The translations under genes were made by a program, and so were the position numbers. A stretch of DNA of 64,000 bases from Branchiostoma lanceolatum (Eukaryota; Chordata; Leptocardii; Amphioxiformes; Branchiostomatidae). The DNA is taken from NCBI RefSeq assembly GCF_035083965.1, contig NC_089726.1:17427501-17491500 (forward strand), in the 5' to 3' direction. The notes beneath the pieces are model-generated. The model ran no database searches, was not told the DNA's origin, and saw nothing but the letters and a program-made list of their open reading frames with translations. Shown one piece after another: positions 1-61,774 of this stretch (the stretch's first letter is position 1; each line of letters begins with the position of its first letter).

Positions 1-2032
1 GACCTGTCCTGTAGCAGCCACCTGCAGGACAACGTCAGCCAATCACAGTACAGTGAGGATTCCAACATCAGCCAATCAGATTACGGCAGCCATGCATCTG
101 TCTGCCAATCAAGTTACAATGCCCACCCCATCGCCAGCCAATCAGATTTTACTTCTCATGTTAGAATCTGTCAGTCTGATATAACCGGACATGCCACTAT
201 TAGCCAATCAGATCTTAGTGCCGAAGCCATAAGCCAATCAGTGATAAGCTCCCAAGATGTCATCAGCCAGTCACAGCTTGGAGAGCAGCCTGGCAGCAGC
301 CAATCAGAGCTGGATGCACATCATTCCATTAGCCAATCAGATCTCGAGGACCACAGCCACATCAGCCAATCAGGGCTCAGTGATGATGGAAGCATAACAA
401 CTGCACACCTGCTGCCAGACAGTGGGCACTATGTCACAGCTGAGGTAAATACTGTGCTTTAATGTTCTTTGATGTCCCAACTGATGTCTAATGATAAATA
501 AAAGACATATTACACTTTGTAATATTTATGGAAAATGTGAAATGCCACCTTTTTATTGAATGGTGTGTTGAAAATCAATCTAAAATTTTTGCAGAGGACA
601 AGGAATTTTGTGGTCAAACTAGCATTCACACACATATGTATGTTTGCAGGGCATTGTGAGCACCAGTATGGCGGATGTGAGTCAGTCTGAGGGACTAGAT
701 GTAACGACCTCAGCGTCCACTCACTACGTCATCGTTAGCGACAACGTGACCTTCGTGCAGTCCTCGACGTCTGATGTGGATGACGGACAGCTGTCAACCT
801 CTGATGTCATACCATTTGCAACTCTCACAGGTGTGATGATTTAATGTGGGAATCTTTGTGGGAATCTTTGGCTGGGTTTACATATTAAGTACACATGCTC
901 GTAGTACACTCAGAGCGCACTCTAAGTCTGATTTAATGTGGGAATCTTTGTAGGAATCTTTGGCTGGGTTTACATAAGTACACATGTGCTTGTAGTACAC
1001 TCGGAGCGCTCTCTAAGTGTGCTTCAAAATGTGTGTGTTAACCCAGCCTTTGTGTAGTAAAGATAATAATAACAGTTGGATGTGGGAGTCACAGCACCAT
1101 AGTATCTAAACAAGCTTTACTGGAAGCTGTCTTCGTGGTTTTTTTTCTATAAAAATCATGATGTTTCGCTTGTACATCTTTGTAAAGCTAGTCGTCGTAT
1201 GACTTTGCAAGCTATCACATCTAAAACATGTAACAAGCCTCCAGAAAGGCAGTATCATTGTCTTGTTAAGATTTACATGCTTACACTTGCAGTTCATAAG
1301 GAAGCTACTAATTTCAGTTAAACCGTTTGGCACCCCATTCATTCTCTATTGGTTATAGAGTTAGGCAGCAGGGAGAAGTTTAAGAGAATTAAAGACTCAA
1401 AAAGTATGCCACAGAATCCTGTTACATCTCTTGAACCGTCTGCACTTAAATTTACTCCTTGAAACAAAACCAAGAATGAATATCAGAGCTGTGAAAAATG
1501 CTTGTGGCATCGCGTGGCGCAATCGGTCGGGTGTTCTGCCCACAATCGAGAGGTCCCGAGTTCGAAACCACCGATATGCCCCGATGTTGTGCCCTTGGGA
1601 AAGGCACTTTACACGACTTTCCTCACTTCACTCAGGTGTAAATGAGTGCCTAGCTTCGGTTAGGGATGTCCCTCGGACAGAACGTTAAATGAAGGTCCCG
1701 TGTTTGAGAATCACACCTCGAGCATGTTAAAGAACCCACCGCACTTATCGAAAAGAGTAGGGGTCCTTCCCGGTGTGAGTGGTTCAATATCCTACAGTCC
1801 TATATGGCCACACATGGGTTCGGCTAGTTGGGTAACCCAGGCATGTACATGCTGAACCAATAAATAGATAAAATAAAAAATGCTTTCTGAATGTTGTTTA
1901 TTTTCTCCAGGTCCCATCCTGCAGCACTCTGACCCTGACCTTCTGGCCTCCTCCTCCGATATGGTCCAGCACGACCTCACCTCCACCACTCACACCGACG
2001 ACGACATGGCCGACTTCAGAGGGGTGAACTGA
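1..2032 (+). CDS. 3' exons of a gene coding a repetitive SQSD-rich protein (partial)
   Basis: Three coding exons are visible: 1-444 (open at the window edge), 650-830 and 1911-2032, ending at TGA 2030-2032. Donors GAG|GTAAAT and ACAG|GTGTG and acceptors TTTGCAG and TTCTCCAG join in phase (0, then 1). The first exon encodes about eleven degenerate copies of a short unit whose core is Ile/Ala-Ser-Gln-Ser-Asp/Glu, spaced roughly 10-15 residues apart with acidic and His residues between. The last exons encode a Ser/Thr/Asp-rich tail ending Arg-Gly-Val-Asn. No enzymatic or DNA-binding domain is seen in this part, so the function is unknown; a low-complexity acidic tail of a nuclear regulator would fit, but that is a guess. 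The repeated base string AGCCAATCA shows that the repeat grew at the DNA level. Confidence 0.7.
1328..1395. repeat. Dispersed repeat fragment (pair with 51655-51712)
   Basis: The stretch GGCACCCCATT...CTCTATTGGTTA...GAGTTAGGCAGCAGGGAGAAG recurs almost unchanged at 51655-51712, both times in introns of unrelated genes. No terminal repeats are apparent. Probably a fragment of a dispersed transposable element. Confidence 0.6.
1505..1865 (+). mobile_element. tRNA-derived SINE
   Basis: The head (about 1507-1573) looks like a diverged tRNA: an A-box-like TGGCGCAATCGG and a B-box-like GAGTTCGAAACC. It is followed by a central domain beginning CCGATGTTGTGCCCTTGGG, shared with the copies at 7738-8068 (-) and 44073-44235 (+), then a tail ending in an A-rich AATAAATAGATAAAATAAAA stretch. 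It lies in the last intron of the SQSD gene. Similar central domains are shared among metazoan SINE superfamilies; the named superfamily was not determined. Confidence 0.8.
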
Positions 2033-10480: not shown

Positions 10481-11711
10481 GTAAGCAGGATTATCCGAAT
10501 CGATTCATGATCTAATTATCGAATAAAGTGACGTTTATTACTTTATCCAAGAGCCCAGAACTGAAGAACTATATCAAATGTTGTGAAAACCAGTCTTTTA
10601 TTCTGAAAGCTTTAACATCTTCTCACATACAGCACGTAGCCGGAACGTAATGCGTTTACGGCAATTAGCCTGCTATTCAAACCTATTATAACTGCCGAAT
10701 CACTTTTGATCTCTTTGGTCAACGTTGCATCGTAGTCACAGCCGTGCATGAGATATGTCTTTGGACACAACTAAACGAACCTGTATGCGAGATATTAACC
10801 TTAGACACGCTTTACGTTCCGGCGACGTGATCTCACATACAGTATCGAAGCTCTACTTCCGGGTTAAAAAATAGTAAAAGTTGCACCGTAAATCTTCAAA
10901 CGTTCTATCATGACCAGGGTAGGCAGATTTCCAAGGTCAAGGAAGCCTTTATGATCAAAGTACACATGTGATATACATGTAATACATTATATGTACATGA
11001 TCTAAACTTGATCTGAGCAAAAAATATAATCTAGTAGTATTGACAAGGCAATGTCTGAAATGTTTCCTCGTTCGGTCGATCATGGTGCTTTTTCGAGTCG
11101 GTCTGGAACCAATAACTCAGTGAAACTTTTCTCTAGTTATGTGTTGCCGGTCTTTTCATGTGCATGTCTGTATCTAGTCAAAATAATTTGGTTCCTCATG
11201 CCTCTGTTCTCCCGTCGCTGCATATACATAATTTCAATATTCCCACCCAGGAGCGGTCACTCACTAAGTGCAGCAGTATGACCGAGTTTCCACCATAAAT
11301 GCTGGACCACAGAAGAGCAGAAGAATGGGTACTGTCACTGCTCTGTTATCTTCTTTTAGTCTTATGTGCGCTCTTTCAATGAAAGTAAACAAAATTATGC
11401 AAACGTAACGTTTAAAGCTAAGGACATATAGTTAAAATAAATAAATCATGGCTATTTGCTAAGATATGATTTTCATACTTTGTGACAACTTGACGTACTT
11501 ATTCGGGTGGAAAAGAGGATCAACTGATATTATCTATGCACATGAGGACTTGAACTCTAGTGTTTGCTTGATACACAATGGTTTTCGGAACAATAGCAAA
11601 CGAAAAAAAAGAGTTCAGTATATAGATGAATATAACGGTACATTATTAGTTTATCACTTGGATTGTGACATTACCTTCCTTTTATGTACTCACACAGACC
11701 CAGTAGAAACT

Positions 11712-13252
11712 ATGGACGACTTGATTAGAAACAACTACGTCCTTCTAAGGGAGAGACTACAAGTTGAGAAACTGATTCCCCATTTCATCGAGAGACGATT
11801 GCTGGATTTCCCTGACAAGCAGGTCGTCATGAGCAAAACAACCACGCCAGCCAAGGCCGAGGCTCTCCTAGAGTTCCTGACCAAGAAGGGCACATGTAAA
11901 CCAGAGGAATTTTTGGAGATATTGAAGAAAGGGGACCACCAGCACGTTGCAGACCAACTGAAGATAACGAGCTCGCAAAAGGAAACTACGGAAGGTAACT
12001 TGAAACTAATGTTATTACTTTTAAGTGATGCAGTATAGGGGAAATGTGTTAAGGGTGCACTAGCCAATTCTTTTTGTTTATGCTTACTGCTTATTTGGAG
12101 ACCTTCTTCAGATTCTGTACATTGCATCAACAAAGGTGTGAGGATCAGCAGGTAACCGTATACAGTGCACTTTCTAAAACCTTCGTATCTATGAATATTG
12201 ATTTTCAAAATTTGTTGACATTGCATATATAATCATAGATCTGTGTTTGTTTGCAGGAGCATTCAGCGCAAGGTTGGGGGACAACAGTACTGGTACGCAA
12301 GGCAGTGAAGGTTTCAATGGGAGCAGTTCTGACGAAGAAAGTCTACAGGAAAACTACAGACTACTGATCGACGACACAATCTTTGACGAGGAAGTACTTA
12401 ATGATTCAGAAAAGTTTGAAAGAAGGCTATCATATTTCAGGCAACATGTTGATAGTGCATTGCACTACTTCAAACTGTCATGGAAAGCAAAGCTACGAAT
12501 TAGAGTCAAGAAGAGAGCCAAGCGTCTCGCTTCAAAGGTACACAGAAAGCTATTTTCGGAAAGAAACCTAGGATCAAGCTATGACAAGATGGTAGAGTGC
12601 TTTGCACTATTCTCTGCAACCTTGCAGAAGATTGAAGATGGATGTGTACTCTGTACTCTTGAGTTTGATGACATCTCAGATTTGAAGTCGTTTCTGAGAG
12701 GCTACCGGGATGGAAAATTGTCAGAAACTCTAACACAAGAACTCATCACAGAGGAGATGAAACAGGAAGAAGGACCAGACCTCTACGTCCATGTAACACT
12801 GCTGGTTGCAAAAGGCAGTGTTGGGGCAGGTGATGAAGGTAGGGAATCAAGATGGCATTGAATATACGCGTACGAGTAAAGTAGATATATATATACTCAA
12901 AGCTGTTTGTTGCTTGCTGGTTTATCGTAACTGCAATATGCACCTGTCCATTTATTGAAAACTTAAGTACCAATGGTATAGACATTTGACCTACTAACCC
13001 TCACACCGCTCGTCCACAAATTGTCAGCCCTAATTTTTATACAACTGACCACTTGCTGACCCAACTTACGTGCATGCACCCTTAGCTTATACATGAACCA
13101 CTGATACTCACCCATCTAACACAGGCAGTGAACCGGAGGAAACAGATCACATGCCAGAAGACAAAGAAGTGCAGAAGACAATCCCAGGCCTGAGACCTGA
13201 TTCAACAACACCAGGTCAGCAAGAAAGAGTTTCACTTGTTTAGAAATACCAT

Positions 13253-13312
<60 letters not shown>

Positions 13313-14247
13313 TCCCTCTCCCTCTCCCTCTCTCTCTCAATCTGATACAATCTGACATTGGATGGCAATGATTAAATATGCAAATTGGCAATATCAAAAT
13401 GCCGACAGGAGTTTGCTATCAAAACTCAAAGGTCACTCTTTGGGTAATACTAGTACTGGTCGTATTGCAGACATGTACCATTAATACATAAAGCAATAGG
13501 CACCCAATCATCTAGCATTTTTGACCAATTTGAACGTCTGATTTCTCCTTAGGGCTTAAGAAGAGTATTTCTAGATCTCTGGACGACATACATGCCATGC
13601 AGTTGCAGATCCATCCTGTACAGAAAGGCACCCCTCAACCAGATCTCAGCAGTCTCGATCTAGCCACCACCTTTGTCCAAGATTCTCGCGTGAAAGACTG
13701 GGCATGTGATTCACTCACAAACCACTTGGCCCTAAGATTATCTGTAAAGTCACGACAACTGCAAGAAGCCCAGCGCAAGGTGAAGAGCACCATTGAGCTT
13801 CATAACAACAAGATTGAAGAGCAGGCCTCCGTCATGCTTAGACTCAGTGATGTGGTCAGGGAGCTTACCCATAAGCTTGAAACAGCAGAAAAGATTCTCT
13901 CCGACAAGAACTCAGAAATCCAACAGCAGAGAGAAGCCATCAAGAACCTAACAGCGATAAATGAAGACCTACAAGCTCAAAGCACGAAACTAGCTGCAAA
14001 TGTGGAGGGTAAAGAAACAAGGGAGCAGGCCTCCGTCATGATTCTCTCTGACAAGAACTCAGAAATCCAACAGCAAAAAGAAGCAACCAAGAACCTGACC
14101 ACAGTAATTGAAGACTTACAAGCTGAAAACACTAAACTAGCTGCCAAGGTGGAGGATAAAGAAACTAAGGAACATGACCTTGAAGTCGTGCCGAGCTCGG
14201 CTGGCGTTTCCGGAGGTGGACAGTCGGGTAAGAATTTCTCTTTCTAA
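11712..14247 (+). CDS. Death-fold adaptor-like protein: CARD, TRADD-N-like domain, coiled coil
   Basis: Exons: 11712-11994 (acceptor at 11697), 12257-12838, 13125-13214 and 13553-14227 or 14247. Every junction is phase 1, so any internal exon can be skipped in frame. Residues 1-86 form a CARD: an alternating amphipathic helical pattern starting Met-Asp-Asp-Leu, with RLLDF and LEFLTKKG blocks. Around residues 200-280 a segment with FLRGYRDGKL and a following beta-like VHVTLLV resembles the N-terminal domain of TRADD (FLRAYREGAL in human). Exon 4 is a long coiled coil with an internal duplication of a ~45-residue block containing ILSDKNSEIQQQ. Exon 4 can stop at TAA 14245-14247 or splice at CAGTCGG|GTAAGA into the CRADD-like exons. 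The role is inferred to be signalling-complex assembly in apoptosis or innate immunity. CARD call 0.85, TRADD-N 0.5. Confidence 0.72.
13252..13340. repeat. (CT)n microsatellite
   Basis: About 30 CT units grading into CTCCCT hexamers, in the intron between exons 3 and 4 of the death-fold gene. Confidence 0.95.
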
Positions 14248-14899: not shown

Positions 14900-15480
14900 A
14901 TGATTGTTGAGTAGAATGTTGCTATACGAAGATGTCGTCTATGTACCTCTACCAGATTAATGGTTTGAGGTTCTTTTTTGTAGACGTGTTGCTCCCCGAA
15001 TTTTCCAATGAAGATGTTTGAAGGCGCCACTCTCGTTTCCATAGCTGTGCCTTGGATTTGGTTGGATGTAGTATCCTCCTTTTAACTCTAGGTTATTCGG
15101 GTTCAGTATCCTGTCCGGTACATTGTAGATAGTAGGAATGTCGAAAGAGTTCTTTTGGAGCGTCGCCAGTTCGCGACACGCTTCGCAACACACCTTCTTC
15201 CATTGGATGTTAGATTAGAGGGATGGCACGTCCAGGGTGACCAGTGTGGCAGTCGGCGATATCTTCCCGAATGTGTTGAGTTTCTGCAAGAAGTCCGTTG
15301 TGTCCTTGATGTAGGGTGGTAGTATTTGCACCAAAGGATGGAGATGGTGGTGAGCAAATTCAATGATCCTTTCTGTTGCACAGTCATTGGCTGAGATGGT
15401 TAGTCTGCCAGGCTTTATTCTTTGTGGATTTTTGAGAGAAGGGCGTTCTTGGATGTAAGGGCGCAAACTAGTTGAACTCG
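14900..15480 (-). mobile_element. Penelope-like element reverse-transcriptase fragment, decayed
   Basis: Minus-strand frames at 15466-15215, 15193-14957 and neighbours together encode pieces typical of Penelope-like RT: PGRLTISANDCATERIIEF, LPPYIKDTTDFLQKLN, then VTLDVPSL and, in another frame, CEACRELA. At least one frameshift separates them and no endonuclease domain is seen, so the copy is dead. It sits between the coiled-coil exon and the CRADD-like exons. Confidence 0.75.
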
Positions 15481-16199
15481 TCTTCGCCGATAGTTCCTTC
15501 TTGCCAGTGTTTTGATGTTTTTGGTGCCGTTTGGTTATTTGTTTATGTATGTGTATATACTATGTTTATGTGTGGTGAGGGCATAACTAGAGAAGCTGTG
15601 GGTGGAACTTACGATATTTGGTAGGTAGGTAGGGGTCAGGAAAACGTTCGATAACATGCCTCCTACTAGTTCTAGTGGCTTTCTACTGTATGGCAGCAGA
15701 GCTTCCAGTTGTGATATTTGGTGTTCTGAACATGCCATGGTCGTGATTTTGGGGTGCAGTAGAGAGCTCTAGCGGTACACACCCTAGTTCTTCCGCGACC
15801 GTGACAAAAAAAAGTGACGACACAGTTCACATATCTCATGATGTGCTGCTAAGTGACATTGCATACTAACAAGGCTGAAAACATGGTGTGTTTCGGGAGC
15901 AAATTGAGTTTGGATCCGAGACTTGTTTCCAGATATTCATCCGCGTTGAAAGTGGAGCGTCTCTTTGCCCGAGATTTGCCTTTAGTTTGTAGTGTTCTGT
16001 GGGTGATGTTGCTTTGCCTTGCGTCGTGGATGATGAAAAGAATATAAGTACTAGCATTTTCTTTACAATTGGCTCGATTACATGCTAGTTGTTTCTCTCT
16101 CTGACAACATCAGTCGTTTCTGCTGAAAAACAGTTTTCTATGAGTTTTATCCTACGCCAAAAAAAATGCGCATCATTTTTGACTCTGACCGTCCTTTTA

Positions 16200-17641
16200 C
16201 CGAAGCCAAGAACAAATTCAATTCAATTCAATTCAGTTTATTAAATCAACTTTACAGCGTTACATAAAAGCTGAATTGTGTTGATTTTTACACAAACACT
16301 GTACACAACATCATCCACAATTAATTAAAAAAAAACAGTACGCATGTAACATAACATAACATATAACAGCGCATAAATTTCCAATATCCGTACACAGTTA
16401 AGAGCAAAAGCCACTCGTCTAGAAACATCATTGGTAATCAAACTAACAGTATGGGTATTACTGAGTTGCCTTGTTGTACAGGCGGATAGCCTGGTGCAGG
16501 AATGAGTTTTTGAGTCTCTGTGTACGGGCTGCTGGTACAGTGATGGCCATGCCATTTCTCAAGGTTCGCCCTGAGGCAAGAGCCCTGGCAGGAGGAACCA
16601 TGTCGTGCAGTGGGTGATTTTCCTCCAGCATGTTTCTGAGTAGTTTTACAGCTGCAGCCTCACGGCGTACTTTCAAAGTTGGCAATGTGGGCACCTCCCT
16701 TCTTCCTCCCAGAGAGATTATTTGCAGCGCTCTCTTTTGAACCCTCTCCATGTTCTGCTCCTGCTCTTTGTTACAGCCTACAAGTAGCACGTGGCCATAC
16801 TCTAGTACAGGTCTGATCAATGTAATGTATATTTGCACTAAGTCAGCAACGCTGGTGCCCTGTTTTGTAAGGAGCCTTAAGTAGTGGAGTCTGCGAGAGG
16901 CCTTTGTGATCATAGAGCTAACTTGTTCATTAAAAGTCAAATTCTTGTCCAGAATAAAACCCAGGCCCTTGGCTAGCCCAACACATGGCACTTCTTGTCC
17001 CCCGAGACACAGTTCTGGTGGAACAGGAACTGATCTGTTAAAGCAAATTTGTAGCAGCTGGCTTTTCTTGCCATTTAAAGTCATCTTGTTGTCACATGCC
17101 CACTCGTCAAGCTGGCACGCTTCCTCCTCCACTGTCTTGTCACTGTCGGCCACAGCCACTTGGAGGGTACGCGACAAGCTGACGTCATCGGCGTAGCCTA
17201 CATTTAGAGTACTACAATACACTGGTGACCTTGTGCTCATAAAAAGCAAGAACAGATAGGGCGAGAGAACACCCCCCTGCAGAACTCCAGATGTAAGTGT
17301 ACACCAGGTGCTAAACTTGCCGTGGGTCACTACTCTTTGCTGTCTCTGTAGAGGTAGTCATGTATCCATGACACCATGTACGGGCTCGCTTGCAGGTTGA
17401 TGACACAGGTCAGGAGTAGAGCATGGTCCACCCGATCAAAAGCCTTACTCATATCTGCGAAGAGAGCTCTTACTAGAGTTGGCTTCTTGGAGTCAAGTGC
17501 AGACAGCCAGGTTTGCACCATGCGTACCAGTGCTATGGTAGTCGACGAGCCTTTCATATAGGCATACTGGTCCCGAATAACCGCAGTCAGAGAGGGGAGT
17601 AGTCTCTTAAGAATGCATCTTTCTAGTAATTTTGCCAAGCC
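16200..17641 (-). mobile_element. Non-LTR (LINE) retrotransposon fragment, frameshifted
   Basis: Read on the minus strand, 17638-17330 encodes the RT block with FADMSKAFDRVDH. 17330-16458 continues with QGGVLSPYLF and the catalytic-type YADDV, then the RT thumb and C-terminal region. A one-base frameshift near 17333 (in the DSK region) separates the two frames. The 3' end carries the tandem tail (ATTGA)n at about 16203-16240. The 5' portion, including endonuclease, is missing. The family (CR1/Jockey-like or related) is unresolved. Confidence 0.85.
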
Positions 17642-17905: not shown

Positions 17906-18148
17906 GCAAACACCATAATTACTTCACGGAAAAGTGTGTCCTACGGATTCTTCTTCCCTTTCAGAATGCATCGCTCGGTCGTGTTTGTTCAATACATAGG
18001 GTAAAATCACAAAAGTTACTTCCGGGTTTGATAGCCAGAACAAATGAGTCACGTTGAAGTTTTCGTCCACTCAGCTCTGACCAGTCTGCAAGTGAATGTA
18101 GGTTCTTATACTTAAATTTTGTCTTTCGATGTTGTAGGAAGTACAGGA

Positions 18149-19391
18149 ATGGAGGAGAGGCACAAGAAAATCTTGAAGAGGAAATATAAAGACCTCACCC
18201 GGGACCTTAGGCCGGACGATATCATGGATCATCTAATACAAGAGGATGTCTTTGACTTTAATGACATTGAACTGGTGAGAGCCCAAAAAGTGAACAAGCT
18301 ACAGGTGGAGAAACTGTTGAGCATCCTCATGACCCGCGGTCCCAGGGCGTTTGGTGTGTTCCTGGAATCGCTGGAAGAGCGGTACCTTTGGCTACACAAG
18401 GACCTGAAGAAGGCAGACGAGGAGTCAGCGAGACAACCACAACAACTGATACCAAAACAAGACAAGAAGACCAGCACCAGCGATGCAGGGCACACTGAGC
18501 AGAAGCGGAAGACGGGAAGGCTAAAGGTTCCACCTGATGAGATCGACAGCAAACGTGTTACAGAGAAACAGCCGTCTTGGCTGGAAGATTAGGTGAGTGA
18601 GTCGTTGTCACTTTGAGAAAGACAAGTAATTGTTTATCCCGTCGTGACTTTGGGTTTTTTAATGCAGTCTGCGGTCCATCTAAACTATGTGCCTGACTCT
18701 AACTGCCTTTATTGAATACGTGCATGTGAAGTAGTGTATGTTAGAGGAAAAAAAGTTGTTGCAGGCAACAAGAGAGTGTACAATGTACATCTCAAGACTT
18801 GTTTCTATACACCTGTGCATACAGTTCAAACTATCAAAGCAGTCTGGATTTTTTCCAGTAGAGAATTTGAAATGCTATTGTCGAGATTCAAGTGTGATAC
18901 TTTCAATGTTAGTATAGCAACCTGTACAACTTCCAATGTTGACTTACAGCCATACACAAGGGTGCATTGCTACCACCATCACACTCGTATGAGGTTGACC
19001 ACTGCACCAGAAGACAGTTGTGCACTGGCAGAGACCCTGAAACTTCGATGTCCAGGTCTTTCATGAACGTGTATTACTGGTGTACTGGTGTAATTGTCTC
19101 CTATTTGTCAAGCACGGAGTTGGTAGTAAAATAATAACGAAGTTTTCTTGTGTTTATAATTATCCAGGGAACCAGTGGGAGAACCTGGCCATACATCTGG
19201 ACCTGACGATGGCAGATTTGGACAGGTTCAAGGCAGACAATCCCTACAACATCAGGTCACAGATATTCTCCATGCTGATGGACTGGAGGGCCATGAGAGG
19301 GGCAGCTGCCACGGTGGGAACACTGATCCGCGGTCTGGAGGACTCTGGTGTTGAAGTGGACGCGTTTAAGTTTTTAATCCAGACAAATTAG
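18149..19391 (+). CDS. CRADD: CRADD/RAIDD-like CARD and death-domain exons
   Basis: The CARD exon is 18138-18592 (acceptor GTTGTAG), with ATG at 18149 starting Met-Glu-Glu-Arg-His, matching the position and style of the human CRADD start as I recall it. The CARD has SILMTRGPRAFGVFLESL, close to the RGPKAF block of CRADD. The death-domain exon is 19168-19391 (acceptor TATCCAG), encoding NQWENLAIHLDL, FKADNPYNIRSQIF and DWRAMRG, again close to the CRADD death domain. CRADD bridges PIDD1 and caspase-2. The anomaly is that the CARD frame ends at TAG 18590-18592, directly before a perfect donor (TAG|GTGAGT), and the death-domain exon needs a phase-1 donor. Thus CARD and death domain cannot be joined simply. 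An intervening exon ending 19053 (CCAG|GTCTTT, phase 1) is possible. AATAAA lies at 19991. Confidence 0.68.
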
Positions 19392-21993: not shown

Positions 21994-22160
21994 CTCGCCA
22001 CTGACGAGAAGCTAGGGCGAGCCAGACTCGAAAAGGCCAGTCCTCAGGAAATCTGTATCATGTTGGAGGAGGCTGGCCAGATTGGCAAGGGTAACTTAGG
22101 CCTGCTAATTGACCTACTGGGACAGGGCAGGTTAGCTAAGCTGAAGCAAGGAAAGTCGAA
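21994..22160 (+). pseudogene. DED-like exon or remnant
   Basis: After an acceptor-like AAAAATATAG, an open frame from 21994 reads through SPQEICIMLEEAG, then QIGKGNLGLLIDLLGQG, RLAKLK. This is the pattern of helices 3-6 of a death-effector domain (Leu-Glu-x-x-Gly-x-Ile ... Asn-Leu-x-x-Leu-x-x-Leu-Leu). Helices 1-2 are not visible upstream and no clean donor follows, so it may be a lone internal exon or a remnant. It lies 2.6 kb downstream of the CRADD-like exons. Confidence 0.4.
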
Positions 22161-27354: not shown

Positions 27355-30300
27355 CTAGAACACGGTGCCGAGAGCGTCGAACCACGACATCAGAGAACTG
27401 TCTATCGTGCTCAGCTCCTTGAATGCCTGGTACGACATCCTGAAAGGCAACAAAGTATTGTTACAAATGTTAGTTAAGAAGTAGCTATGACTAACATGCA
27501 GGGCTGTCTATCTCTAGCTTTAAATTATTATTAAGTTATTGTTTGGGAGCCCATGTTTTCAATTTTCGTTGTTAAATCGGCCATTTCAAGCTTACAAAAA
27601 TACAGTTTCATCAATTTCATGCCACGAAGATCATAATTTTTTGATGGACAGCTGAAATTTTCTTCCGTTCCATGAAGCATTTTCGTCTCGGGACAGACGG
27701 AGTACGGGTTCTGGAGACAGCCCTGCTAACGTGTCACTGAGTTGTCATACATTCAAGATCTGTTTCTGTCATATTATTGCACATACTGTAAATCACTTAA
27801 ATATAGCGGCAGGAAAATTTAACGGTTGGGGAAAATAGAGTAGGTCACAGCGCTTAATTCTAACAGTGGGAACAAACATCACTGTCTCAAATGTTAGTGA
27901 TCAAATATTTACTATGATGAAATTTTAGCGGTTAACTAGTGAACGTTAAATGAGCTAAAATTAAGTTACAGTTAACAAATCGTACTGTATTTTAATTACT
28001 TATGTCATATAATTGTAACTTATATTTTTGTAATGAAAAGAAGGTTTTCTTCTCTAACCTGTCTCCTAGTTCAAGCTTGGCATCCTTAAAGACGTTGTCG
28101 ACCATCTCCTCTATAGCATCCTGGGACATGGCCTCCATGACAGGCCACATGTTCTTCCTGTAACAAGGAAAAATACAGTAAATTGCAAAACGTTTGCTGT
28201 GGTTTTATGTTTACAATTTTCATGGTGAGAGTTCAGTATATTCAAAGTTTACAAGAGCACAGAACCAGGATTCACAATACAGGGTAGACGTTATAGTGGA
28301 ATGTCCTCATTGCAGATAAGCATAAGAAGCACTAAAACGACACCATGGGAAAGTACTTACCCAAAGAAAACAGGCTGTTATCCAGCTCAAACGACGAGTA
28401 CAGATCCCGGAAGTAAACAAACCTTACATTTGACCCAGATTTCGGCTGTATTCATCCGCTCAGGGCAGGTCTGACCAAACTTCTCACATATGTTCTTACG
28501 CCAACTAATCTGGTGAACTGAACCAAAATAGGAAAGCTCAGACCCTACCTGTTCTTTCTAACCAAAAAAGTCTAAGATTGGGCCCAAATTTTCAAGGAAA
28601 AGAAAGGGTTTCAAGGATTTTAAGTTGGCACTACAAACTAAAGATATTTCCATCTTTGGCCTCCACCACGCATGTCCACTGTAACGTTTACCATACATAT
28701 ACAATGTAATCTAGGCATATATATTGCAACAAAGGATCAGCAAACTCAAGTTTCCTACTCTGTCTGACTGAAGTGTCCCTGTTCTAGTAGCAGAGTAGGA
28801 ATGGCATGTATATAATACTGTAGGAGGAGGTCTTTCTGAGCAAAAGGGCAGGGAAAAAATTTGCATACGTGGCTCCAGGGTTCCCGGGAATGGGTGGCTT
28901 TCCGTTCACCATCCTGCCCTGCTGACCAGTGTTAGACGGGATGGGAGCGTTGAACAAGGCTGACACAGGCTTGCCCTGGCTATCATCAAAGTTTAACATC
29001 TGCAAAGGAGAAACTCGCTCTAAAGATGCTGTACAGAAGCAGTTAAGGTATGACAAGAACAAGAATCTTGATTGACGCAACAAGAAGTACAGTGACTTTT
29101 GTACGGTCAACTACAAACTAAAAATACAGAATAAATCTTTAAAAATGCTTACATTCTTTTCTGACATCCTAAAATTTCACCCTTTTTCTTAATCTCCAAG
29201 CAGATGTTGGGGTAGAAATCGCAATGTTTCTGACCGACTGGCTTTTCAGACAGTCGGAAAACAATAGAAAAGCCAGCTGGCCTGAAAACTCTACAATATC
29301 CTACCCCAACATCTACTTGGAGATTCCCTTTTTCTATCTCACATACTGATTTGAATGTACATTTGTATTTTGGAAGATGCCTTTCAGAGAGGGTAAACGG
29401 AAATTTAAACTAAAAGCTTCATACCATCTCTTCTTCACATGCCTTGACCACGTCTCTTACGAGCTCAATGGAAACCTGGAAATATGCCTGCAGAAAAGAG
29501 GGTGGATAAACGCGACATTCAAAAATGAAGCTGACACATTGTAGGAGCTTATACATAAAAGTCATTAGATTTAGAGTGTGATATCATCTTCTATGTTGAG
29601 AAAAGTCACACTGCAAATTAATTATGTTGAAATTACGGACCAAAGAAGCTTTAATACACATGGAGTATCAAATGTATGTGCTGAGAGAGAAAACGATAAA
29701 TACACAAATTTGAAGCAGAAAAGAGGAAAGAAAAAGCGAAAATTTGCACCAAAATTTACATAGAAACAAGGAGTCAGTTTACCTTTAAGAGCTTAGTCAG
29801 ATTTTCTCTGCTGAGTGAGTTTTTCTTCTCTATGTCATAACCCTGGAATGCAACTGGAGTGGGAAGTAAAGAATGGGTTATAATAAGTCCTCCATTTTAC
29901 CATTTCCACATTGTTTTTTTCTATGATTAGCACAAAGCATACGGCATCATCATGTAATAAAGCAGGCATACTGAAGTCTGTTTTTGTCTGTTCACTGCAC
30001 ACTTAACATGTACTAACTTTGTATGCATACACATACCAAAAACTTGGTATGCGTTCTTACCAAAATCTTGTGAAAACTTAAACACTCTGAGACTCTTATA
30101 ATAACTGATTTCTGAACAAAGAAATACATAGGGTTCAAGTTAGAACATTTTTTTAATATTACAATATTATCATATTGTATTGATGATGCATGAAGATAAA
30201 ATTCCTAGAAATTTACAATGGTCCAAAAAATAGAAACTACTCACATCTGGTCTTTTCCTCTTGAGTACCCTTCACCAGCACAGACAGGCCTTTGGCAAAA

Positions 30301-33300
30301 TCATCAAAGTCAATGACTCCGTCGTCGTTAAAGTCGTAGAACTGAAAGTCAAAGTTATACATTTGAAACTCAATATAAAAACATCTGAGACTGAAGTTTG
30401 GTCGAACATACCTGGATTGTCTTTGTCTTTATTACTAGCAATTCTGTCTTACAATTACTGTAAATGCAGAAATATTTGCGGTGGTTTTATGTTCACGTTT
30501 TTTGCAGCAACTGTTTTACCGCGAAATAAAACCACCACAAACATTTTTGTCCAATACTGTGGCAGTGTGTGACTATAGAACTGCCGCGAAATTAAAACCA
30601 CCACAAACACTGACTCCATTTTCCTCTTAGCGCAAAATAAAAACCATGTGAACTTATTATAATATTATTAAGTGCATTTACAGTATATCACTGGAAATCT
30701 GGAACCGGAACGTTTGTCCTATTTCAGAATGAACCAAGTTGAAAACAGACTTTGTTTGAGGATTGAGTCATATGTTGAGCATGTGGAGCATATAAGGGAA
30801 CCCACCACATTCTCGATACAAGTTTGAATGAGGGCACAGTCCTCTATATACAGCAGGGATTTTTCTAGAAAAAATTGAAAAAGAGGGTGCACACACAAGC
30901 GATGGAGCGAATTCTATGCACATTGTATTTATGGAAGAATGGATTGCTGAGTGAAGGCTGTATGCTGGATATTAAGCTAAAATCTGAATTCGACAAGGGG
31001 GCACTGGGCTGAAACAAGAGGGTGCAGCGCCCCTCTTTCCTGATTTAGATGAACCCCTGTACAGCACTTTACAAACTCTAGCTACGGAACTGTTGTGTCC
31101 AGCATGGACTGGTTTACTGGTTCTATGACACAAACAAACAAATAAACAATAAGAGATAAACAGAGCTGTACCTGCCATAGCCTGTCCAGTACCAGGTTGT
31201 TGAGGGTACCCAGCGGACCGAGGCAGAAGTTGAAGGTGTCTCTCTTGATGACCGCGTCCTGATCACACAGACAGCGGTACTGTTCATACAACGCCTCCAG
31301 CTCAAAGTGATCGACTAAGGTAGGGAGAGATCATGACACCAAAATATAACATTTTCTGATCATGTTCAACAATAATAGCATTATCCAATTAACACACACG
31401 TTTGTGTAAAACAGACACCCTTCTGTTGTTGTATGCAAAATTTGAACATGGCGACATAAGAAATTATATTATAGTTCTAGCTGCATGGGAATTCCTGCTG
31501 TCAGGTAATTGAATTATAAGTTGATTGACCTGAAAAGGCTGAAACCATGTCACAGTGAACACAGCAACCAGTTCGGTAACACACACAACAGTTTGCAGAA
31601 TACTAGTACACAGTTTAAAAGACACAAATTTATTTTGAGTTAATCATAAATCATGATTTATATGGGCAATTACAAGATTTCAAAATATTTGCTTCTTACG
31701 TCTAGAATATCATTACCAATTCCACCTCAAAAATTTTCTCAAGCCCAATGTCCGCAACAAATCTAACCCTGCTAATAAAAATTAAAAAAACTGATTCAAA
31801 TGTGGTGCATTGATACAACCATAGTGGGAAGAAGGTTAATTAACTGAACAATTAACTTGAAATACATAACCAAGATCTACATTAAAACCTACAGTGAGTG
31901 ATTTTCTGTAGTCTTTTAACATGACTCCATGAGATAGGCTGGAGACTGTGGTCTCTGGCAGTGGAACCTGGAAAAACACAAAAAAACATTGCTGAAGCTA
32001 CATGTGAAAGGACAGCATCCCTGCAAAAATAAGTAAATGTGTTATACATGTAATATAGAGGTATGCATGCTTCAAATGATATAGGGAACTTGACTGAACA
32101 TCCACTAAAAATCAATTAGTTGATTGATTAATTAAATTTTGTAATCAATCAATCAATCAATCAATCAATATCTAAGCAACTTGCAGTAGAATACAGAACT
32201 ATACAACTGAATTACATTGTATGTAGATTTTGAAAACTTTTGCGAAATTGATTACATTGTATAATGAAACAAGTATAAACACTAAAATTTTGTACGCTTA
32301 CCACAATCATACACAAAAATATATTCATACTGGCTGACCTGTGAAGAGTGGTTTAAACAAGGCTGCGCGTGGACTGGCCAGGGGTGGGAGGGGGATGGTG
32401 ATCTTGATGAACATGTGACTCTTGTCGTGGATGTCCAACGGTTCACATCTTTCACAGACGTCATAGTCGACACAGTTTCCACACTGGGGGGGGAATAAAC
32501 ATTTCAATATATACAAACAAAGGAGTGAAAAAAATATGGCATCAAAACTATAGCAATGTGATGACTGGGCCCTGTCAATGTTTTCATGATTACAGCTTGT
32601 AGTAGTATCCAGCACTGGCAGTACTAGTAGTATCCAGTATTGATTATACTGCCGCCAGGGTGACACAGGGCAACAGTCGGCTAGTCTTCACACCGCTCTT
32701 CTGCACGGCTCTGTCCGGGGAGTTCACACTGGTTGATTACAGCTTGGATCCGGCATATTTTTTTGCCGAGACTAAGGGTGATTTTAAGTCGGAATTCAAA
32801 GGGGGGAGGGGGGGTCGACTCAAGCCCCAAAACTACCCAGTGGAAAAAAATACAGCCCCAAAACCGACTGACTGAGGTATAACAACTAAAAAAAAGCAGA
32901 GGAACCAAAGTTTTTTTAGCAATACATGTGCTGTATACTGAACTGCTATTGCTACAATGTACATTGCAGTATTAACAAGGTCATTTAATTCATAATGATA
33001 AACTCGGTGCATACCTTGTACCTGGTGCCACAGACAGGGCTGTTGCTACAGATGTTACAGGTGATCCCTCTGTGGACATAGCCCTCTGAGGAAAACAATG
33101 AACACAGTCATCTGTTACAGGACAAGCTTAGCTACGTTTGGGATTGTGTTCTCAGGGCTCGAAATTCATTTTTGGAAGCACCCAACAAAAAAATTAAGGT
33201 GCACAGAAAAATTTTGGGGTGCACCACATAAAATAAAGTTGAATGTCAGCAAAACAAAATTACCAACACTCTTAAGAACTACAATCCGTAATTCTATAGC

Positions 33301-54300: not shown

Positions 54301-56927
54301 CCAGTGTCCAGCAGTGAAATTAAAAAAATACAGGTACAGACAATACAGCTGGATTAGCACCTACTTTTATGGGGGCAATTACCCGAATTCATTACTCAGA
54401 AAATGTTGCAAACATTTCTAAATATTTCGAAATTTAGAAGAACCGCATAGATATTTGCAAATTATTCTAAATAAAGAGATTTTTGTGCAGTCCCTTTCAG
54501 AATGTTTCCAAACCATCAAATTAGATTCAAATAATTTCAAACTTTCACTTTCAATAATTTTTGAAAAATTTAGAACTAGTGTGACTTACATATTCTCTTA
54601 TTCAAAATAATTCAAACTAGTTACAAATATTATTTAAAAACCCTCTTGGTGACTTGGAATGGACTCTACTCCAAGCTGGTGATATCTAATACAATGTACA
54701 GTTTATAGATTGCCTGATATACGCATATTGGTAATACCAATGATCCGGACAATGCTTTAGTATGTATTGTATGTCATTTTTAGACTTGTTTTGTTTCAAA
54801 TTATTGCGCCATTTCGCGACGCACGGGAAAATACTAGCCTGACTGACATCCTGTTTCAGTTCCAGGCTATGCCTTCACCAAACATGTTTGGTGAAGGCAT
54901 AGCCTGGAACATGTTTGGTGAAGGCAGAGCCTGGAACATGTTTGGTGAAGGCAGAGCCTGGAACATGTTTGGTGAAGGCAGAGAGCCTGGAACTGAAACA
55001 GGATGACACTCAGGCTTGGAAAATACGTGACCTCAACAAACAAAATGCCCGCCATCGGAATGTCACATTCTCAGTTTTGGCTCCAAATCAGATACAAGGT
55101 AACTTTGTTGGAAATCGCAGTGTTGCCATTGACTTTGAAAAATGTACAATGATTCAAATTCATCAATAAGAGATTTGCAGTGATTTGCGACGATTTCGCC
55201 ATTTTGCCAATAGCGAATCTTTTCATCTAAAATAAAATCGCAAATTCAGGCCACACATTAGGGCCTTGAATGCCTTTCGCAATTGGGCGCAATTGGGCGC
55301 AGTCAAGTAAGATAAGCGCTTCAGATTTTCTCGCATTCATGTCACTAAATCTACCTTTGTGTATTTTCATACAGGCGTCCCTGGGCCTCCAAGACCACCT
55401 GGACCTCCAGGTGAAAATGGAACCATGGGACCTGCTGGCCCAAAAGGAATGGATGGCCAGGCAGGCGTCCCTGGGTTTTCCGGCCCTCTTGGTCCACCCG
55501 GACCTCCAGGACAAAAGGGGCCCATGGGACCAGCTGGTCCTGGGCTTGCCGGTGAAAAGGGGCCCGTGGGACCAGCTGGTCGTGGGTTTCCCGGCCCTCC
55601 TGGCCCGCCCGGCCCTCCCGGTAAAACGGGACCCATGGGACCAGCTGGTTATGGGTTCGCCGGTCCACCCGGCCCTCCCGGTAAAACGGGGCCCGTGGGA
55701 CCAGCTGGTCCTGGGTTCCCCGGCCCTCCTGACCCACCAGGACGTCCCGGTAAAACTGGACCCATGGGGCCAGCTGGTCTTGGGCTCACTGGCCCGCCCG
55801 GCTCACCCGGACGTCCCGGTAAAACGGGGCCCATGGGACCAGTTGGTCCTCAAGGCCCACCCGGACGTCCCGGTGAAAAGGGGTCCATGGGGCCAGCTGG
55901 TCCTGGGTTTTCCGGCCCCCCTGGTCCACCCGGACCTCCAGGACAAAATGGGCCCGTGGGACCAGCTGGTCCTGCGTCTGTCGGACCACCAGACATCCTT
56001 CCGACGTCCAAACAGAGCGAGCCGAATGCAGGTAAGAAATGTATTCAGACCTTTCATATGGCCGAAAGACAACTCGCTGGTATGCAATAAGCACACATAA
56101 AGCCCCCCCCCCTCCCACTGGACCCGTGGTCGAATTGACAAAGCACTCAACAAATTTCATCGACAAAAAACAAATCTTTTTAAGCTTTGTGTGTTTTGTT
56201 GTCTATATATATATATATATTTGAATGATATTCCCATCATAAAGTAAAGGGTAACACGAATCCAGTTTAGGACGCAGCGCCGCCACCAGCGTGCCGCGGG
56301 TCAGGTGAGTGGGGGGGGGGGGGCTTAACACAGAACTCTTGATGCCATGAAAAACCTTACACACATAGTACCTAAGCAAACATATGATGCCTCAACAGTA
56401 CTTGAACTGCGTCCATTTTTATATTCATGTATATGTATCTCCTCGTCTAGATCTGTCGTTAACGGCGAATTCTTTTGTTTTTGCCAGGGCCTTGTCCTGT
56501 GGGCTATACTTACATGTACAGGGCTGGAATCTGCTACAAGGCGTTCAACACACCCAAGATCTTCAGCGAATCGGCCGCGACCTGCCGTGGAGATGGCGGC
56601 ACTCTCGCCATGCCCCGAGACGCCGATACCAACAAATTCCTGATCGAACTCAAGAACGGTGTGGACCACACTTTGCACTACTGGATCGGCCTGGAAGATC
56701 GGCGCAGAGAGGGAAGGTTTGAGTGGGTGGACGGCACTCGACTTGGCTGGTACAACTACTGGGCTCCGAACGAACCAAACAACTTCAGCAACTACGAACA
56801 CTGCGTGCACTACGGCGCCTACTCTGATCCAGAGTTCGCAAGCAAGTGGAACGACGAGGCATGCACTCGTTCAATGGGCTTCATATGCCAAGTCGTCGCA
56901 GGTACTTTCACACAAACAATCAAGTGA
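51325..56927 (+). CDS. Type II membrane collagenous C-type lectin (collectin-like)
   Basis: Exons 51325-51364, 51938-52021, 53466-53582, 53791-53874, 55375-56031 and 56488-56927, all phase 1, 473 residues. Residues 1-60 are a cytoplasmic tail; ~65-80 is the membrane segment ([16 protein letters not shown]). A short stalk precedes a Gly-X-Y collagen region (~110-315) whose GPMGPAGPG-type blocks repeat about every 20 residues. A complete C-type lectin domain follows (~328-465), with paired Cys, the mannose-type EPN motif and the calcium-binding WND. The protein should trimerise and bind sugars at the cell surface, as scavenger or pattern-recognition lectins do. The stop at 56925-56927 lies 11 codons past a possible donor (GCAG|GTACTT), so an alternative tail via an acceptor at ~57248 (TTTTTCAG) is possible. 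Confidence 0.87.
53263..53365 (+). mobile_element. CAAGCAACTGGATAA foldback element, second copy
   Basis: It starts GTTAGACATCCAGGTAATAA; an inner hairpin CTCAAGCAACTGGATAAAAT is mirrored by ATTTTATCCAGTTGCTTGAG. Opposite orientation to 21240-21360. Confidence 0.7.
53948..54668. mobile_element. Inverted-repeat element (CCATTCCAAGTCACCAAGAG), copy 1
   Basis: ~720 bp. The left end GTCCATTCCAAGTCACCAAG and the right end CTTGGTGACTTGGAATGGAC are perfect inverted repeats. The inner block GATTAGCACCTACTTTTATG is shared with the copy at 58372-58907. Non-coding; in a lectin intron. Confidence 0.8.
54835..55016. mobile_element. TAGCCTG foldback with an internal 27-bp minisatellite
   Basis: Outer arms TAGCCTGACTGACATCCTG and CAGGATGACACTCAGGCT, with inner GTTTCAGTTCCAGGCT against AGCCTGGAACTGAAAC. 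The centre holds about four tandem copies of a 27-bp unit (AACATGTTTGGTGAAGGCAG plus AGCCTGG). Located in a lectin intron. Confidence 0.8.
55068..55318. repeat. Dispersed repeat (pair with 50395-50665)
   Basis: See 50395-50665. It ends about 55 bp before the collagen exon. Confidence 0.6.
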
Positions 56928-59240: not shown

Positions 59241-61278
59241 TATTTTTTTTATTTTTTATTCGTATATGTTTATGGAGTATAAGGCAGAAAGCGATTGCTT
59301 ATATGAAGCCTTCTACTCAACACATACAACAAAGAGACATAATGACATGCATAAATACAAAATGGATAAAAGAAAATTAACAATAGACAGTACAAGTTGG
59401 TATCAATCGCTAAATGAATCTTCCAGTACGTTGGATGTAAGTATGAACTATGTCGAATATATTACAGTTTTGTAAGTATGAGAGTGAAGTGGAACCGCGT
59501 AACAGAATAGAACATAGTGAGCTGTCGTTGAGTTGTTGAAGGTCAGTTATGTTGGAAAGAGATGATAACATGGTACTTCTTTGGGTGGTATAGAGTTTAC
59601 AGTGAAGGAGATAATGTTCAGTTGTTTCACTATAATGGCCACATTTACATGTAGAACAATCTATACAATGGTGTAGAAATAGGTGGTGGTTTAACTGACT
59701 GAAATTTAAACGAAGCCTTGTAAGATGAACTGCATAATGTCTTTGGCCGTGAGAGAAGTGAGGGTGTTTGATCGGTCTATTGAAATGTGAGTCCAGTTCC
59801 TTTTTATAAACGTTGATCGTAAGCGATGCTTGGACGTTAGAGGGCAGTTCATTCCACAAGTGAATAGTTGAGGGCAAGAAAGATTTTTTACACTTTTCAG
59901 TTTTACAAACAATGGAGGTGAAATTCTGGTTGGCACGGAGATTGTATGGGACAATGTCACAAACACGTGGTGGGATGAGGTCTTGAAGATATTGTGGTAC
60001 GAAACCATTCAATATTTTCCAAAAGTGGATCAGCTTATGTTTTTGTCTTCTGATAGCCAGTGTATCCCATCCAACCTCGGCTAACAGAGACTCGTGTTTA
60101 GTGCCTCTCATGGCTCCAGTACAAACCCGTGCCGCAGATATTTGAACAGATTCAAGTAAATCAGAGTCTTTGCCGAGGAGGCTACACCAAACAACATCTG
60201 CATATTCGATTAATGGCCGAATCATACTTAAATACAAGGTTTCCAGAGTTCCCCGGGGAACAAAATGTTGTATCCTTTTCAAAAGGTTTATACGTTTCAT
60301 TGCCTTGGATGTTAATTCGGATACATGGTATGACCAAGACAAATCACGTTTTAAATGTAGTCCCAAGTGCTTATGACAATCAGCTTCCTTCAGTTCAACT
60401 CCCTTGAACACTAACGGTGGGTGATGGACCTTGATCTTTTTCATAGAAAATGTCATTAGTACGGTTTTGAGGGGGTTAAAAGTTACCAACCACTGGTCTG
60501 ACCAGTCACCCACCAATTTAAGATCGTGGTTCAATCTATTTGCTGAGACAAGACGATCCAAAACTATTTCCATCAGCGACGTGTCGTCAGCAAAAAGATT
60601 GGCTTCAGTTAGCAGATTGTCTACCAGATCATTAATAAAAACTAGAAAAAGAAGTGGCCCTAGGAGTGACCCCTGTGGGACACCTGCATCAATAGGTAAC
60701 CAGCTGGAACATGACCCATTGATGACGACACGCTGCTTTCGATTCGTAAGGTACGACTCAATCCATTCCAGAAGTGATCCGGATACTCCCAGTTGACGCA
60801 ACTTGAAAATAAGCCCAGCATGCCATACTTTATCAAAAGCTTTGGATATATCCAAAAAGACGGCACGGACTTCTAGACCTTGGTCTACTGCTTTGTGTAG
60901 CTTGTGAACAAGGTGCGTCAATGAATTAACAGTTGAATCACCGGGAGTGAAACCAGAATTTCGATCGGTAAGCAGGTTGTTGCCATGTAAATAGGTAGAT
61001 AATGGAACATAAACTATACGTTCAAACACTTTAGAGACAGCGCATAAAAGTGAAATAGGCCTGTAGTTTTCCTTCGCCTGCTTATCGCCTTTCTTATACA
61101 CAGGGCCGACATTAGAAAGTTTCCAAATAGACGGGAAACAGGCGTATTTCAATGAAACATTAAACAAGTGTGACAGTGGTTCTGATACTGAAAGCGCAAT
61201 ACTCTTCAAGAGTCTATTACTCAGGCCATCAGGACCAGTAGCCTTATTAATGTTAAGGTCTGATATTACTTTGTACAC
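59241..61278 (-). mobile_element. 5'-truncated non-LTR retrotransposon with open RT frame
   Basis: A 622-codon uninterrupted minus-strand frame (61278-59410) encodes a reverse transcriptase that begins inside its N-terminal region (NKATGPDGLSNRLLK), with AVFLDISKAFDKVWH, AGVPQGSLLGPLLF and the catalytic LFADDTSL. A long C-terminal region follows, with a cysteine/histidine cluster (CSTCKCGHYSETTEHYLLHC). The endonuclease half is missing. The 3' end near 59241 is A-rich (AATAAAAAATAAAAAAAA on the minus strand). GTACATATAT on one side and GTACACATATAT on the other suggest a short target duplication. The unbroken frame marks it as recent, but it cannot mobilise itself. Confidence 0.9.
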
Positions 61279-61774
61279 ATATATGGAATGTAGCTTTGCA
61301 TTATGTAAACTTTATTGCATAACTACTGTACAAGGTACAGCGTATGGTGTCTTCTGCTACATAGCAACAACCATTCTAGTATGAGACTAATCTACCTGAC
61401 AGAAGACTTTGTTTTATGGGATGAGAATATGTTTTTACAATTATTGGTGGATATGTTATAATAAGTTCCAATTCTATATCTTTTTGTCGTTTTGATTAAG
61501 TGTTAGAGTGCTACACGAAAAATGGGACTCAACAACATGTAAGTGACATTGAAGAAAGTGACCAACAGATGCAACGTTAAATTGTTAAAATGTGTGGAAA
61601 CTATCATGGATACTAATAAATCAAGAGCCCTTAAACGTATAGGTCCATTGCATCATTACCGCATATTCTTTAGTGTACTCATCAACTGTATCAAGTGTCA
61701 TGTTCTCAAATATGCTTGTTGAATTACATTGGACGCCCAAGTAAGTCGAAATCTTAGACTGGTGAAGAGAGATA

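Follow-up and report, generated by a model that had tools for sequence, protein, structure and literature searches.

A predicted amphioxus protein joining a CARD, a TRADD-N-type domain and a duplicated coiled coil

TRADD-N proteins are greatly expanded in marine invertebrates, Branchiostoma included, and the expanded proteins share a layout in which a Death-like domain, usually a DED, and TRADD-N form a constant unit that is combined with a variable region (Kaur et al. 2021, PMC8195603). According to the same paper, cephalochordates hold 46-71 copies of the DEDD2 clade, the expansions are associated with retrotransposons, and in vertebrate DEDD2 the TRADD-N domain is coupled to a DED. This last point was overlooked in a preliminary description of the locus reported here, which had stated that vertebrate TRADD-N is coupled to a death domain (PMC8195603). 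Its further term, an undescribed signalling module, was too strong, since the combination of Death-like domain, TRADD-N and variable region has been described and is expanded in invertebrates (PMC8195603). The particular trio of CARD, TRADD-N and coiled coil is not named in the examined sections of PMC8195603; CARD occurs in the paper four times (three times in the text, once in the reference list), in no case concerning a TRADD-N protein. A literature search covering titles and abstract openings yielded no paper describing the trio, and TRADD does not occur in the study of domain shuffling in amphioxus by Zhang et al. 2008 (PMC2575513).

The window, that is, the whole stretch of 64,000 nucleotides of Branchiostoma lanceolatum DNA that was analysed, contains a predicted plus-strand gene in which the three domains follow one another in a single open exon chain. 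We consider it probable (roughly 0.78) that the product of this gene is an intracellular adaptor belonging to the invertebrate family built from a Death-like domain, TRADD-N and a variable region, in the DEDD2/TRADD-like clade. In this adaptor a CARD would replace the usual DED, and the coiled coil would represent the variable tail. Pfam analysis identified a Death-like domain, a single TRADD-N domain and a variable region, the combination by which the DEDD2-clade expansions are defined (PMC8195603); assignment to the DEDD2 clade is based on similarity to DEDD, not on a tree.

Joining four predicted plus-strand exons (11712-11994, 12257-12838, 13125-13214 and 13553-14227) yielded a stop-free frame of 543 amino acids with GT-AG borders and phase 1 at every junction, in agreement with the single chain of four phase-1 exons that had been proposed before. 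Exon 1 (11698..11994, coding from ATG 11712) carries the CARD and was placed by Pfam, frame and donor. Exon 2 (12257..12838), placed by frame and Pfam, encodes an acidic and Ser-rich linker, a helical segment, a basic stretch (KLRIRVKKRAKR, residues 173-184) and the TRADD-like_N domain. For exon 3 (13125..13214), a 30-residue acidic linker, phase and splice signals alone were used, and exon 4 (13553..14227), encoding the coiled coil, was placed by a heptad test and an open-block shuffle control. The donors of exons 1 to 4 ranked at percentiles 98.4, 99.5, 98.7 and 99.4 among all GT sites of the window by consensus score. For exons 2, 3 and 4 the acceptors, scored by pyrimidine count alone, ranked at 89.8, 95.9 and 95.9. 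Reading the sequence upstream of the ATG revealed a candidate acceptor AG at 11696-11697, and a 5' UTR exon may therefore precede exon 1. Open phase-1/phase-1 blocks of the length of exon 2 or exon 4 were obtained on the plus strand in none of 100 base shuffles each. The real plus strand contains four such blocks of at least 582 nt and three of at least 675 nt, and those remaining beside exons 2 and 4 are two frames of a collagen-like ORF. A CARD-only gene might nevertheless have been misjoined to a separate, adjacent TRADD-N/coiled-coil gene, as the CARD frame stays open for about 40 bases past its donor, to 12035. This appears very improbable because exons 1 and 2 meet at a donor/acceptor pair with the same phase on both sides, and because the Death-like domain and TRADD-N are the unit kept constant in the family (PMC8195603).

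The CARD expected in the first exon was detected by Pfam at residues 3-84 (11718-11963; PF00619, E 4.4e-9) with 36.7 bits, above the curated cut-off of 23.9, and a reversed control of 289 residues spanning the CARD/TRADD-N region matched no Pfam family. Comparison of the CARD exon with PDB chains gave no natural CARD below E 0.12, and CARD11 was matched at E 1.5. NCBIfam gave two low-scoring rows for the exon (E 0.052 and 0.076), both unrelated and well under the cut-off. The single-sequence AlphaFold model of the CARD, calculated without an alignment, had a pLDDT of 51.0, too low to be informative. A second CARD exon located downstream in the window bears a weak resemblance to the first one (tblastn E 4e-4, with 26% over 68 residues).

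The coiled coil was well supported at residues 383-466 (13744-13995), where heptad contrast was compared with shuffles: in seven windows of 42 residues each, with starts from residue 383 to residue 425, only 0 to 3% of the shuffles reached the contrast observed. From residue 466 to about residue 530 (14187) it is weaker; residues 432-487 taken alone failed the heptad test (16 to 89% of shuffles reached the contrast), and the second repeat copy was marginal, with 5.7% and 2.3% of shuffles for windows starting at 488 and 495. Heptad register phase 2 was the best in 16 of 27 windows overall; of the 20 windows that start at residue 369 or later, it was the best in 16. The internal duplication noted previously was recovered by a repeat search as two plus-strand copies of 135 nt, copy 1 at 13893..14027 and copy 2 at 14040..14174, which are 84% identical. 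Their offset of 147 nt corresponds to 49 codons or exactly seven heptads, so that the heptad register would be kept. Between the copies dN/dS values of 0.10/0.56 (NG86) and 0.12/0.31 (YN00) were obtained from a small sample of 44 codons; the duplication is apparently under purifying selection, and the excess of dS over dN supports exon 4 as coding. Several Pfam rows for exon 4 (ANIS5_cation-bd at E 0.0028, KASH_CCD and others) were under cut-off and of the kind typical of coiled coils, and were rejected.

Within exon 2, the TRADD-like_N model PF20694 matched residues 205-262 (12586-12759) of the full protein with E 4.7e-10 (39.6 bits vs 23.7, Pfam) and the trimmed domain with E 6.8e-11 (42.3 bits). 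Judged by the DEDD alignment, the domain extends over residues 173-279 (12490..12810, plus strand). A blastp comparison with DEDD gave E 8e-10 with 25 of 94 columns identical (27%). PF20694 also recognises DEDD (52.9 bits) and human TRADD (47.8 bits). The classic TRADD_N model PF09034 reached only E 0.058 and 13.9 bits at a cut-off of 25. As far as these profiles can tell, the domain is thus of the TRADD-like_N kind common to DEDD and TRADD and not specifically the TRAF2-binding TRADD_N.

An AlphaFold model of the domain, for whose superfamily an RRM-like alpha/beta fold is expected, was calculated without an alignment and showed a helix-strand-helix-strand order past model residue 30 at a pLDDT of 50.5. 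Of the 397 matches from a fold search with this low-confidence model, none reached E ≤ 0.001 and TRADD was absent among the 50 listed; TRADD was likewise not found when the TRADD-N region was compared with PDB chains by sequence. For exon 2, NCBIfam gave no match and a search of viral contigs gave 15 pattern matches and no relatives; a weak PADLOC match to AriA (E 0.02) was taken as chance. By tblastn, neither the TRADD-N exon nor the coiled-coil exon had another copy within the window, the only row being a chance-level one of 27 residues (E 0.81).

The preliminary description had likened this middle segment to the N-terminal, TRAF2-binding domain of TRADD and had seen in the protein an adaptor linking CARD assembly to TRAF-type signalling. 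The domain type was upheld, but the specific TRAF2-binding assignment was not. If the protein were the counterpart of TRADD, its TRADD-N domain would bind TRAF MATH domains and drive NF-kB signalling from a CARD. The common superfamily and the recognition of both human TRADD and the window protein by PF20694 speak for this reading, as does the FLRxYRxGxL-type segment, in which F, R, Y, G and L are invariant in a three-sequence alignment. We also noticed, at residues 119-126, two matches to a TRAF2-type motif, (P/S/A/T)x(Q/E)E, to which no evidential weight was given. Against the reading stand the score of the classic model and the four exons, which lack a death domain. In addition, Ser67 is a main residue through which TRADD contacts the MATH domain of TRAF2 (PMC8195603). 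The uS motif at the beta2-beta3 turn carries Ser or, occasionally, Cys (Kaur et al. 2021, PMC8195603), and the window protein shows the rarer form, Gly223-Cys224 (12640..12645, plus strand), placed at the expected turn by alignment alone with the Gly-Ser of DEDD. With Gly-Cys in the turn, the serine of TRADD that contacts the TRAF2 MATH domain is absent. Furthermore, MATH domains were not expanded in parallel with TRADD-N, and MATH has been argued not to be a universal TRADD-N partner (PMC8195603). With the contact serine missing and a domain that resembles that of DEDD, the case for a TRAF link is weaker; binding to MATH domains of the TRAF2 type may occur but is not the preferred reading, and a TRADD counterpart is unlikely.

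The preliminary description ended the gene at 14247. The TAA at 14245-14247 is indeed in frame, but this end presumes read-through past a strong phase-1 donor at 14228, 17 bases upstream of the stop. Both a splice at this donor and read-through to the TAA are possible 3' ends, and exons beyond exon 4 are possible because of the donor. If the chain continued, it could run into a CARD exon at 18138 or a death-domain exon at 19168 and yield a longer TRADD-like protein carrying a second CARD or a death domain; the donor that closes exon 4 would allow this, and both downstream exons begin at phase-1 acceptors, so that either join to exon 4 is open in frame. However, the downstream pair resembles CRADD/RAIDD. 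The best PDB match of the CARD exon (18138-18592, plus strand, ATG 18149) is RAIDD (E 5.5e-11), and it aligns residue 1 to residue 1, so that the exon's own ATG fits as a start. The best match of the death-domain exon (19168-19391, plus strand) is CRADD (E 1.8e-8). The CARD frame meets a stop at the exon's donor; another frame before that donor resembles helix 1 of the CRADD death domain, and this stretch joins the death-domain exon in phase. The extension was set aside because the two exons resemble a CRADD gene, and we regard it as improbable. The next gene downstream (18149-19391, plus strand) is probably a separate CRADD/RAIDD-like gene, and its broken frame looks like a frameshift, a frameshifted allele, a pseudogene or an assembly error. 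Amphioxus CRADD has been reported (PMC3196919).

Further features were noted in the window, in which Pfam was applied to selected open frames (10 + 5, besides separately run sequences including the 543-residue protein). Between the two CARD genes lies a reverse-transcriptase-like ORF (16461-17357, minus strand; RVT_1 E 2.9e-5, under cut-off), and a second reverse-transcriptase ORF is located at 59413-61311 (minus strand; RVT_1 E 2.7e-29). The minus-strand ORFs at 14957-15559 are presumably transposon-derived, judging by their motifs; Pfam found nothing at 15218-15559 of this strand. A partial DED with a basic tail (21994-22150, plus strand) matched Pfam DED with E 0.0047 at profile positions 26-72 of 82, under cut-off, and may represent a DED gene, decayed or incomplete, near the CARD genes. 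A collagen-repeat ORF (55311-56087, plus strand, E 7.9e-23) is followed by a C-type lectin exon (56463-56924, plus strand, E 3.1e-20), which is a collectin-like arrangement as judged by these matches. On the minus strand a weak EF-hand (30240-30428, E 0.0011) and a weak ZZ zinc-finger (32328-32687, E 0.023), both under cut-off, are perhaps exons of one gene. Positions 1-459 (plus strand) form an open frame with repeated SQSD-type units and no Pfam family above cut-off. Rfam gave no match within the window.

Comparison with described systems places the predicted protein closest to the DEDD2-clade expansions. With these it shares a Death-like domain, TRADD-N and a variable flank, a DEDD-similar TRADD-N and a reverse-transcriptase-like ORF near the gene, whereas it differs by having a CARD where theirs is usually a DED, and by its coiled-coil tail (PMC8195603). 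Vertebrate DEDD and DEDD2 likewise consist of a death-fold domain, a linker and TRADD-like_N, but their N-terminal domain is a DED, none being found at the N-terminus of the window protein, and their turn is Gly-Ser instead of Gly-Cys. DEDD is not known to have a long coiled-coil tail, unlike the window protein. Vertebrate TRADD has the TRADD-N superfamily in common with it by profile, but the classic TRADD_N cut-off is not reached, the contact serine is replaced, and the C-terminal death domain of TRADD has no equivalent among the 543 residues of the four exons by Pfam. The scaffolds CARD9, 10, 11 and 14 begin with a CARD and also contain a long coiled coil. The window protein does so as well, which offers a possible working analogy, but TRADD-N lies between the two domains, and its CARD is not specifically close to the CARD9/11 type, as the CARD11 comparison indicated. 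It is a doubtful possibility that the protein, as an architecture undescribed before, acts as an oligomeric scaffold of the CARD9/11 type in which TRADD-N is an integral switch, and that its gene forms a local CARD signalling cluster with the adjacent gene for a CRADD-type adaptor.

In the favoured reading, an adaptor of the DEDD2/TRADD-like clade, the coiled coil would keep the protein oligomeric, and TRADD-N, situated between CARD and coiled coil, would restrain the CARD or present a docking surface, following the TRADD-N switch model of Kaur et al. (PMC8195603). On a signal the CARDs would cluster and nucleate CARD partners, for example a caspase, a sensor or an adaptor of the CRADD type, and a further partner would be recruited by TRADD-N. 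We infer the splicing, the oligomerisation, the partners and an immune or cell-death role; the presence and order of the three domains in one open chain, and the homology of the middle one to DEDD and TRADD, are read from the predicted protein itself.

The analysis thus bore out that a single predicted exon chain, open in frame, combines a CARD with a TRADD-N-type domain and an internally duplicated coiled coil. A CARD instead of a DED, together with a coiled-coil tail, is what sets the protein apart within an already described kind, and we consider this of moderate interest. If the gene is transcribed as predicted, the Death-like partner of the TRADD-N bridge could be a CARD and its tail a coiled coil, and TRADD-N proteins would be tied to CARD assembly rather than to that of DEDs or death domains. 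The gene would then add one more case to the domain shuffling that is known from death-fold and TRADD-N genes of invertebrates.
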